From the NCBI GenBank assembly GCA_029881795.1, contig JAOULX010000005.1, positions 62,001 to 126,000 of the forward strand: DNA of 64,000 nucleotides, given 5' to 3'. The notes under the pieces were generated by a model. It made no database searches. It was not told where the DNA came from and saw only the letters and a program-made list of their open reading frames with translations. This DNA is from Gammaproteobacteria bacterium (GTDB lineage: Bacteria > Pseudomonadota > Gammaproteobacteria > SZUA-229). A program made the translations under genes and the position numbers. Positions 1 through 5,214 of the stretch are shown here, in pieces (the first letter of the stretch is position 1; the number at the start of each line of letters is the position of its first letter).

Positions 1-988
1 TAATATCATCGGGCCACACGTCGCTATCAACAACATCCTTTGAGGATTCATTTCCTGATGCTACGCGAATAATCTCCATCAATGTTGACTTACCAGTTCC
101 CCTACCTCCTATTATGCAGCTTAGATTATTACTAAAATCAATAAACTGATCATCTAGGAGCCCTCCCTTAATCTGCACTTTGACAAATTTTGGAACCTTT
201 TCAGGGATTACATCTTCGACACGAACTCGGGATTCATAGGACATCAAAGCAATGCGGAGTGCCTGAAAACTCAATTCATCGACCTTAAAACGTGTTAGTT
301 TCTTATTTCCTTCTGCGTTTGTTCCAAGCTTATTTATTGAATGTGAATCAGATGACATGACTTTAGGTAGTATTACATCATCATGGAGGTTAAGTTTTTT
401 TCTTCTCTCTTTTACTAGAGCCAATCGATTACTATCTGGATCTTCATCTGTATAAAGCTCATAACTACCTTTTTTACTTATTTCAAGCGCAAGCAATGCT
501 GGATGGCAGAATATATCATCCATTTGAGAATTAAATCGTACTACCGTCTTTTCAAATCCTGAATCTAACTCAATATGTGCAAGGATTCCAAAACCATTGA
601 ATTGAGAAGCTACATTTAAGCACTCAACAATTCCCTGCGAGCAGCGCTCTTTGTCCTCAGCTATAGTAAGCTTCCCATGAAAGGATCTTAACTCTTGAAA
701 GCTAGAAAAATAAACAAGAAGGTGGCCCTGTGTTGTGCTTACCTCAATTCCGGGTACTACAAATATATCCTTGCCTTCAGCATAATTAATTGCAGCCTTA
801 CTATTTAAAATTTCGTTGTGATCTGTAATGCTAATTATTTTCAGATTAGACTCTATTGCTGTGTCTACAATTTGTTCAGGCGTCATATTTTGATCAGTAA
901 CGTCAAAAGAACCTGAATCTTTTCCATAAGAATGTATGTGAAGATCAGCTCGAATAAACCTAGCTCCATTGTTAAAGGTAATATCCAA
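1..988 (-). CDS. PHP-domain / AAA-like P-loop ATPase (TrlF- or Ppl-like), 3' end beyond window
   Basis: The frame is open from 988 to the window start, about 329 codons. The N-terminal PHP phosphoesterase domain shows LHIHS (residues 16-20), ITDHNE (54-59), GIEVS, LAHIE and SSDSH, the usual metal-binding set. A Walker A motif, GGRGTGKS (294-301), follows, so an ATPase domain starts here and continues out of the window. PHP plus ATPase is the layout of NCBI's TrlF family and of the Ppl anti-phage protein described in defence-system screens. The start is a TTG at 988: GGAG lies at 995-998, six bases upstream, and no ATG fits. It follows an attC-like site, so it looks like cassette cargo. Nuclease or defence function is inferred from family layout. 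Confidence 0.82.
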   Translation of the reverse strand, partial: MDITFNNGARFIRADLHIHSYGKDSGSFDVTDQNMTPEQIVDTAIESNLKIISITDHNEILNSKAAINYAEGKDIFVVPGIEVSTTQGHLLVYFSSFQELRSFHGKLTIAEDKERCSQGIVECLNVASQFNGFGILAHIELDSGFEKTVVRFNSQMDDIFCHPALLALEISKKGSYELYTDEDPDSNRLALVKERRKKLNLHDDVILPKVMSSDSHSINKLGTNAEGNKKLTRFKVDELSFQALRIALMSYESRVRVEDVIPEKVPKFVKVQIKGGLLDDQFIDFSNNLSCIIGGRGTGKSTLMEIIRVASGNESSKDVVDSDVWPDDI

Positions 989-1090: not shown

Positions 1091-1165
1091 GCATATAACG
1101 TTCAAGCTGTGCGGTGCAAACGAAGCGCAGCGTAGTTTGCATCCGAACGAGTGCCTTGTTAGCGC
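1091..1165 (-). repeat. attC-like recombination site (integron cassette type)
   Basis: Read on the minus strand, the site opens with GCGCTAAC (1158-1165) and closes with GTTATATGC (1091-1099). Between them is an imperfect inverted repeat: GATGCAAAC pairs with GTTTGCACC around a short loop, with one unpaired A interrupting the CGG/TGCAAAC arm. Simple-site boxes plus an extrahelical base are the known hallmarks of attC. Its length of about 75 bp is within the known range. The opening box is the exact complement of GTTAGCGC at the start of the preceding cassette (2075-2082), as expected for a cassette excised as a circle. The GTTATAT core departs from the GTTRRRY consensus. Confidence 0.7.
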
Positions 1166-2081
1166 ATGCTGTTAGTTGACTGAAACGCATTTTAACTTTA
1201 CGTTAAGAATCTTTGCTCTTTCCTTTAGTTCGGGAGTGAGCTGTCGCTCAGTAACTAATATAGATTGAACGTTTACAGAATATGGGGCGTGTTCAGCGAT
1301 TTTAACTTCTCTATACTTAACGCACTGATATATGCCTCTTTTGAAGTCTTCATCGTTTGAGCGTATAGACTTCACCTCTACCGTGACAAAAGAATCACCC
1401 TCAGAAAATAGAACATCAATTTCGTCACCGGATAGAAGCCGAGATTCTTTTACCCCAGTACCAAATGATTGACGAATACCGATAGCCTTGGGGTTGTTTG
1501 AAACCCAGTTCTTGAGTTTTTTATGCTCTTTGCTTTCAGCAGGGCCTCCATGATGTGGTGTCTTATAATTGTCATCATTTGCTTCTTGCTTTTTTCTTAG
1601 CGCAGGTGTTTTCTTTCCGAAGAGTTTATTATTTAAATCGCTCCATTTTGTATATTCGAAAATCTTTTTACGCTCTCTTTCGATTATTTCTTTTTTTCTT
1701 TTTAGTGAAACCTTATTCCATTTACGAAGACTTTCATCATTATATCTATCGGCAAGATAACCACCCACACCTACACCAGGTATTCCATTTGGTCTTGTGA
1801 TTAAAACATTGATAAGTGGTGCTTTTGGGGCTACTTCTAAGATTTGATTCATTAGGGACCCAGCTACATGCCCGATTTGCGTGGGAAATATTGTTTTTAT
1901 TTTAAGTTGATGCTCTAACTCAGAGCCAATATCACCATAAGTAATGAATGGCTCGCCAGAGCCAATACACTCAAGAAGCATGGCCATTGCGAACGGAGGG
2001 CCTTCCTCACCAAGTTGCTCAACGGTATATGTAGACATAACTTCCTATGCTCCTGTGAATCAGTAACTTTTGTGGCGCTAA
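1099..2081 (-). mobile_element. Complete integron-like gene cassette carrying a nuclease gene
   Basis: The unit begins (minus strand) with TTAGCGCC just after the G at 2082, has a short leader of about 40 bases with a ribosome site, one gene filling nearly all its length, and ends in the attC-like site at 1091-1165. One gene, little non-coding DNA and complementary end boxes are the classic cassette architecture. No integrase gene or attI is visible to the right, where ordinary chromosomal genes resume at 2307. It may be an array lacking an integrase (CALIN-type) or the end of an array whose integrase is elsewhere. Confidence 0.62.
1172..2038 (-). CDS. Putative PD-(D/E)XK nuclease with N-terminal alkyltransferase-like (MGMT/ATL) DNA-binding domain
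   Basis: 288 residues. The C-terminal part shows a PD-(D/E)XK core: GDEIDVLF (D208), then VEVK (E221, K223) and a QxxxY pair (Q238, Y242), the pattern of restriction-type and RecB-type nucleases. The N-terminal 95 residues resemble the winged-helix domain of O6-alkylguanine alkyltransferases: ITYGDI (32-37) matches their TYGEIA turn, HVAGSLMN (57-64) their recognition helix, and a final GxGGYL segment (90-95) their last strand. The PCHR active site is replaced by LITR (79-82), so no methyl acceptor cysteine exists, as in ATL proteins that only bind damaged bases. The middle is a lysine-rich linker. The start is supported by AGGA six bases or so upstream. Nuclease assignment is fairly firm; the ATL resemblance is my reading and needs a profile search. 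Confidence 0.68.
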   Translation of the reverse strand: MSTYTVEQLGEEGPPFAMAMLLECIGSGEPFITYGDIGSELEHQLKIKTIFPTQIGHVAGSLMNQILEVAPKAPLINVLITRPNGIPGVGVGGYLADRYNDESLRKWNKVSLKRKKEIIERERKKIFEYTKWSDLNNKLFGKKTPALRKKQEANDDNYKTPHHGGPAESKEHKKLKNWVSNNPKAIGIRQSFGTGVKESRLLSGDEIDVLFSEGDSFVTVEVKSIRSNDEDFKRGIYQCVKYREVKIAEHAPYSVNVQSILVTERQLTPELKERAKILNVKLKCVSVN

Positions 2082-2094
2082 CTTGTCGTTAGGC
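2075..2094. repeat. Cassette 5' boundary with remnant attC core
   Basis: GCGCTAAC and GTTAGGC face each other across five bases. On the minus strand this reads GCCTAAC, GACAA, GTTAGCGC. GCCTAAC matches the RYYYAAC opening box of an attC exactly, and GTTAGCGC is the start of the nuclease cassette. The usual 50 or more bases between boxes are missing, which suggests that the preceding attC lost its middle. Confidence 0.5.
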
Positions 2095-2306
2095 AGCCAC
2101 CTAAGACTCCCTATTTTTCCACTATATAAACCCAATCATCGCTACCTATTACGATATTTAAGCAAAAAAGTAGTCTCATGCCATGCTTTCAGCATTTGAC
2201 TATCATTCTTTCTAACTACTTATACCTTTTGCTTTTAATGAAAACAATCTTTAGCTTATCAATCAGTAATTACTGACATTCTACTAAAGATGTGGGGTTG
2301 CTGGGG
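2095..2306. other. Intergenic AT-rich stretch between cassette and chromosome
   Basis: No gene, integrase remnant or clear terminator is visible. This is where an attI site and cassette promoter would lie if the array were intact; I see neither. Confidence 0.5.
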
Positions 2307-4977: not shown

Positions 4978-4991
4978 AACAAAATCACCTG

Positions 4992-5036
4992 CGGGTCGTC
5001 CCGTCTTATTAACCGAGTATTCGGGTCGTCCCGAAT
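4992..5036 (-). promoter_or_regulatory. Two tandem identical hairpins/palindromes in the desaturase leader
   Basis: CGGGTCGTCCCG occurs at 4992-5003 and again at 5022-5033, 30 bp apart start to start; the second is extended by three more pairs (ATTCGGG...CCCGAAT, 5019-5036). On the transcript each forms a hairpin with an ACGA loop, the first directly abutting the ribosome site (4986-4990). As DNA, two palindromes at about three helical turns could be bound on one face by a repressor. Either reading suggests regulation of the desaturase operon. Confidence 0.5.
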
Positions 5037-5214
5037 GACTTTTTATTAGTTTATTGCTTGATTTGCAAATTACAGGCCAGAATTTAAGAGCGGGTGACTG
5101 CAGGCTACAAGCGCCGCAGATCATTGGCGACCGTTATGCTGTTGTGTGTTACTCAGCCAAACGAGGTTATGTTATGCACTAAAAAGTTACAGACGCACAA
5201 AAATGCAGCAGCGG

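Follow-up and report, generated by a model that had tools for sequence, protein, structure and literature searches.

GmrSD enzymes belong to Type IV, the restriction enzymes that depend on DNA modification. Known readers of DNA base modifications are few, and each new one has yielded a class of modification-dependent restriction enzyme. Type IV enzymes of this kind that combine a winged helix with a PD-(D/E)XK nuclease have been described, namely FcyTI, Psp4BI and DpnI-like enzymes (PMC11037411), and fusions of an AGT or ATL domain with endonuclease V (EndoV) occur in archaea (PMC10779285). Guardians of restriction-modification systems, including PrrC and PARIS, have been reviewed (PMC12707154), and integron arrays have come to be seen as reservoirs of genes for phage defence (PMC12409362, PMC12444791).

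Here we analysed a gene for a 288-aa protein in a 64,000-nucleotide stretch of gammaproteobacterial DNA (the whole stretch is called the window below), and find it most likely to encode an undescribed type of phage-defence nuclease. Like the archaeal AGT-EndoV and ATL-EndoV fusions, the protein joins an alkyltransferase-type domain to an endonuclease, but EndoV has another nuclease fold, and the archaeal AGT domains keep their pocket and belong to a repair context (PMC10779285). FcyTI, Psp4BI and the DpnI-like enzymes differ in being nuclease-first and in reading 6mA with a DpnI-type winged helix (PMC11037411), and none of the searches in this analysis tied them to the protein family studied here. 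GmrSD (PF03235) occupies the same Res-X-Mod slot as relatives of the window gene in related Type III-like operons, yet is built of unrelated domains (GmrSD_N/DUF262 plus HNH). EndoMS/NucS (2vld, 5gke; NucS_C, PF01939) agrees with residues 164-288 of the protein in nuclease fold and in catalytic layout (Z 13.5), whereas its N-terminal domain differs from the winged-helix/MGMT-like one of the family. Finally, MGMT/ATL proteins (PF01035; 1yfh, 3gva) share the predicted helix order, the TYGDI helix and an invariant Tyr at the nucleotide-flipping place, whereas the family protein has no PCHR/PWHR, no Pfam match and extra helices at 91-109. The original prediction held that no system of this layout had been described. 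The exact domains in this order were indeed not found in open-access papers, but the AGT/ATL-EndoV fusions (PMC10779285) and the winged-helix/PD-(D/E)XK enzymes (PMC11037411) are known; what is new is the domain architecture with its uncharacterised candidate reader, and the general idea of a reader-nuclease restriction protein is not.

The gene and its family

The open reading frame predicted at 1172-2038 proved exact in its coordinates, and its strand, which had not been given, is minus. The gene and the parts of its product are as follows.

1172..2038, minus strand: complete gene, 288 aa, with an ATG start and the stop at 1172-1174
1619..2038, minus strand: N-terminal domain (N-domain), residues 1-140, predicted winged-helix-like with a distant MGMT/ATL resemblance, carrying the TYGDI helix and a PGxG loop
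1547..1579, minus strand: linker, residues 154-164, predicted flexible (pLDDT <50)
1175..1549, minus strand: PD-(D/E)XK nuclease domain, residues 164-288, matching EndoMS/NucS, with E168, D208, E221-x-K223 and Q238xxxY242

Single-protein searches of Pfam, NCBIfam, PADLOC and PDB sequences gave no significant match to the 288-aa protein; weak matches to Dyp_perox_C and colicin S4 both overlapped the stretch 77-130 and were judged to be chance. A genome scan with the protein as single query likewise returned no relatives. A profile from a four-sequence alignment found 79 loci in a scan of species genomes, and tblastn against plasmids found five relatives (in Alphaproteobacteria, Bacteroidota and one record labelled Lactiplantibacillus). 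In total, the family comprises about 80 homologues from at least 10 phyla, with a few of them on viral contigs. Judged by sequence, the protein thus belongs to a real, undescribed family without a Pfam, NCBIfam or PADLOC model, and a literature search covering open-access and not subscription papers found no paper describing it. The distribution is patchy: of 398 Pseudomonadota genomes, just 7 gave a match to the nuclease profile. In a gene tree across the at least 10 phyla, the window copy clusters with copies from an Omnitrophota MAG and a Zetaproteobacteria MAG (support 99/86), a placement with the pattern expected of horizontal transfer.

The nuclease half

An AlphaFold2 model of the 288-aa protein reached a mean pLDDT of 92.6. 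In a comparison with PDB structures, residues 164-288 matched EndoMS/NucS on its C-terminal nuclease domain: 2vld reached Z 13.6 (rmsd 2.2 over 107 residues) and 5gke Z 13.5, with Can2/Card1 and restriction-enzyme entries ranking lower. Across about 78 homologues scored for conservation, E168, H172, E198, S203, D205, D208, E221, K223, R234, G235, Q238, C239, K241 and Y242 vary little or not at all. The five residues originally proposed as the nuclease core (D208, E221, K223, Q238 and Y242) are all present and invariant among these homologues, and the catalytic layout is that of EndoMS/NucS. Model and alignment together confirm the predicted nuclease half as an EndoMS/NucS-type PD-(D/E)XK fold with intact D...ExK and QxxxY motifs. 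The NucS_C profile (PF01939) gave no significant match to the 288-aa protein, and because the structural match to EndoMS/NucS is confined to the nuclease domain, we did not assign the protein as NucS proper. In a structure search with the N-domain alone, the entries listed were weak winged-helix/MGMT matches and included no NucS entry.

The N-terminal domain and its resemblance to MGMT/ATL

Folded alone, residues 1-148 gave an AlphaFold2 model with a pLDDT of 94.8, and the N-terminal half is confidently predicted to be a winged-helix-like domain. The motif order noted originally (ITYGDI, G.VAGSLM, GxGGY) is present in the window protein. Because Foldseek with the N-domain alone returned no match with E<1, the claim of a link to MGMT rests on second-look Z-scores, profile comparison and HMM tests. 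In the second-look comparison, MGMT/ATL structures made up 6 of the 17 PDB entries with Z of at least 2 (1yfh, Z 4.5; 3gva, an ATL, Z 4.0; 4zyg, 8aes, 1mgt and 4zyh; overall Z 3.1-4.5), with matches spanning 76-87 residues within model residues 5-129 and lying on the alkyltransferase C-domain; the generic winged helix of ScpB scored above them (Z 5.0). In hhalign, the family N-domain scored 34-36 (probability 82-88%) against an MGMT profile built from 24 PF01035 domains from relatives, whereas MGMT profiles with shuffled columns reached no more than 20.8, and GntR and MarR winged helices 19-24 (probability 7-24%). An MGMT HMM scored family N-domains at a maximum of 13 bits and exceeded 5 bits in 18% of them versus 0.3% of shuffled sequences. 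Searched against all PDB sequences, the family profile placed 1mgt (MGMT) second, aligned over the TYGDLA helix with an E of 0.18 that is not significant, and PF01035 itself gave no match to the 288-aa protein at E<=10.

These comparisons suggest that the resemblance of the family N-domain to MGMT is more than chance. Profile, fold and HMM evidence concur in making MGMT/ATL the nearest, if remote, of the families compared, at a level below normal significance, and a distant relationship, visible in the fold and the TYGEL helix, is probable. Within the helix, Y34 (73 Y and 3 gaps in 76 N-domain rows) aligned in both the HMM and hhalign with the TYG Tyr of MGMT, that is, the position of Tyr114, the phosphate-rotating, nucleotide-flipping Tyr of the helix-turn-helix. 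P74 is present in 76 of 76 rows, and P87 and G90 are conserved across the family. At position 57, the likely arginine-finger position in an inferred register, the family varies (Y19 F11 H10 K8 R6), with H in the window protein.

Neither candidate register of the N-domain contains an alkyl-acceptor Cys, a PCHR (MGMT) or a PWHR (ATL), and alkyl transfer as its activity was ruled out since there is no cysteine. The loss of the cysteine and of PxHR had been predicted correctly, but the exact pairing of PCHR with LITR is doubtful: the predicted secondary structure, a short helix at 76-79 followed by a strand, suggests that P74 (P-L-I-N) lies nearer the PCHR position, where the family reads P-L/P-I/L-N/Q. 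As hhalign per-column confidence is low outside the TYGEL helix, either register for PCHR is tentative. Reading of alkylated guanine in particular, also part of the original prediction, is unsupported because the resemblance is below normal significance and the PCHR/PWHR pocket is missing; the H at the inferred arginine-finger position and the distance of the MGMT link likewise lend it no support. The proposed two-domain fusion itself holds, as a predicted winged-helix, distantly MGMT/ATL-like domain joined to a PD-(D/E)XK nuclease with intact catalytic residues.

Exchange of candidate reader and nuclease modules

Profile searches detected the N-domain without the nuclease in stand-alone proteins of about 115-150 aa, in a 127-aa protein (P0002) whose gene lies downstream in the Rhizobium operons that carry the family gene, and fused to an HNH nuclease at locus L183 (HNH_2, PF13391, 53 bits). 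Conversely, three loci (L055:4984-6378, L075:5287-6480 and L137:9839-10993) encode the same nuclease behind a different N-domain, which has the motif W-x-I-x-H/F-V-x-R-D...IGWYEDA, is elsewhere fused to DUF3883 and had no match among PDB sequences; it is possibly another reader domain. Both N-domain and nuclease are thus swapped among partners, which fits the expectation for a reader plus an effector. Stand-alone and HNH-fused N-domains with TYGEL/PGxG (L183, L184-L188 and L025:10569-10952) are without a Pfam model; they occur in a few per cent of the Pseudomonadota genomes sampled, with one homologue in phage NCTB.

Relatives in restriction operons

At eight loci, a helicase-REase gene, the family gene and a Type III methyltransferase gene lie close together in this order, often followed by a UvrD helicase gene; in one such operon (L004), the helicase-REase matched NF046055 with 1178 bits and the methyltransferase PADLOC MTase_III with 1213 bits. 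At a ninth locus (L019), the family protein follows just after the methyltransferase, and at three further loci the slot between Res and Mod is taken by the version of the nuclease with the alternative N-domain. In the other alphaproteobacterial operons sampled, this slot holds GmrSD_N proteins (two cases; PF03235, 90-100 bits), HepT, NYN, a DUF4268-like protein or one unassigned protein, or is empty. A variable accessory slot between helicase-REase and methyltransferase was seen at L168:3781-5655, L173:3568-5457, L164, L163 and L176. Elsewhere, homologues lie next to hsdM/hsdS/hsdR genes of Type I systems, and some have no obvious defence neighbours.

We favour, at roughly an even chance, a restriction-associated, Type IV-like defence nuclease of two modules, in which the N-domain would probe a base of foreign DNA and the NucS-type domain would cut. 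A reader fused to a nuclease, with no need of a cognate methyltransferase, is a Type IV trait; the protein is a fusion and its window copy is solitary, but other homologues adjoin methyltransferases. We infer that the winged-helix, MGMT/ATL-like domain would bind DNA and probably inspect or flip a base, that this base would most likely mark foreign DNA (as a phage modification or an absent self mark), and that the EndoMS/NucS-type domain would then cleave, so that the protein would act in modification-dependent defence. The window copy would act alone as an integron cassette, and its relatives would serve as an exchangeable accessory in Type III-like and Type I restriction-modification operons. 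This reading is favoured by the two domains with the nuclease fold and its intact catalytic residues, the linkage to restriction operons and their slots, the swapping of modules, the patchy distribution and a cassette array that also encodes TrlF, OLD-like and NucS-like proteins (see below). Against it stand a remote MGMT/ATL link (Z of about 4 and Foldseek E>1), a reader pocket that is not recognisable, the absence of restriction genes next to the window copy and the homologues that lack obvious defence neighbours. More tentatively, the MGMT/ATL fold may have been re-used as a reader of modified-base or non-self DNA, flipping a base, leaving it unrepaired and passing the DNA to the nuclease; this would be a new class of Type IV reader that plugs into Type I/III systems or travels on cassettes. 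The N-domain is in no profile library searched, reaches at least 10 phyla and is small enough for one integron cassette; if modified or flipped bases are what it reads, DNA-alkylation repair folds would be tied to phage defence and a testable enzyme family gained.

The slot bears on a second explanation. Since GmrSD enzymes are of Type IV, their presence where the family protein sits in other operons favours a modification-dependent role. Toxin-like genes also occupy the slot, which makes a guardian or abortive-infection nuclease possible. Toxins and guardians are likewise housed in accessory slots of restriction operons, so that the slot alone does not imply modification dependence. Such a nuclease would read no base modification; its N-domain would sense a protein or DNA structure arising from phage attack on, or inhibition of, the restriction system, and host or phage DNA would be cut so that infection ends. 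HepT, NYN and DUF4268-like proteins in the slot, the linkage of homologues to Type I systems and the precedent of guardians such as PrrC and PARIS (PMC12707154) fit this account, but two of the proteins found in the slot are Type IV enzymes resembling GmrSD, and the window clade stands alone, adjoining no restriction system that it could guard; we regard it as unlikely, if a serious contender. Distinctly improbable is a plain sequence-specific restriction-type nuclease with an ordinary winged-helix specificity domain, whose host would be protected by absence of the site or by a partner methyltransferase. Winged helices often read sequence, and the family is closely coupled with Type III and Type I methyltransferases, but no methyltransferase gene adjoins those of the solitary window clade, so self-DNA there would have to be protected in another way.

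The window copy as an integron cassette

The window gene is the first in a row of same-strand genes with attC-like sites between them; coordinates marked L123 are those of the locus.

2074..2096, minus strand: attI/attC-core-like sequence CTGCCTAACGACAAGTTAGCGCC, upstream of the window gene, identified by sequence
1091..1166, minus strand: attC-like site just downstream of the window gene, with the boxes CTAACAAGGC...CGTTAT and, inside them, an imperfect stem CGGATGCAAAC/GTTTGCACCG that has a single extrahelical base
2..988, continuing beyond the window (ORF L123:16325-18988), minus strand: next cassette gene, encoding an 887-aa PHP+AAA ATPase of the TrlF family (NF045780, 555 bits)
L123:15501-16223, minus strand: 240-aa cassette protein, nucleotide-cyclase-like by eye, with no profile match
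In the cassette row: OLD-like AAA/TOPRIM protein with weak AriA, GajA and Old matches
L123:12443-13501, minus strand: gene of the fifth cassette, for a 352-aa protein that weakly matches NucS_C and is the array's second NucS-like nuclease

The site at 1091..1166 folds no better than shuffles (z -0.3), and the three next attC-like sites fold clearly better (z -2.4, -2.9 and -4.8). The sequence at 2074..2096 is the likely 5' boundary of the array; its core CTGCCTAACGACAAGTTAGCGCC was searched for near the integrase contig and not found. An integron integrase gene is present on another contig of the same genome (TIGR02249, IntI, 377 bits). With its one-orientation array, attC-like sites and an integrase in the genome, the window gene is an integron gene cassette whose own site folds weakly. 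A search near relatives of the window gene found no attC sites, and cassette carriage is therefore established for the window copy only. This copy does not lie between Res and Mod and has no restriction or methyltransferase genes in contact. Other genes of the array probably also serve phage defence, and the one for the 240-aa protein is possibly a signalling-type defence gene.

Genomic context thus points to restriction rather than repair, in agreement with the first of the two functions originally suggested. The second, a self-contained repair nuclease in which the ATL-like domain would locate alkylated or bulky bases for incision by the NucS-like domain, can draw on the MGMT/ATL resemblance, on a mismatch-specific repair enzyme as the nuclease's nearest structures and on the AGT/ATL-EndoV fusions (PMC10779285), but it is the weakest reading and very improbable because the PCHR/PWHR pocket is lost, the patchy, horizontally moved family sits in restriction operon slots and a cassette array rather than beside repair genes, and the host genome encodes its own, separate MGMT.

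Comparison with a congener is consistent with insertion of the array in the window genome: the congener retains the desaturase, metallo-beta-lactamase (MBL) and EamA genes, followed by an aminotransferase gene where the window has the array. A guanidine-II riboswitch (window 4991-5037, minus strand) lies at the 5' end of this row of desaturase-like, metallo-beta-lactamase and EamA transporter genes, which possibly forms a guanidine-related pathway.
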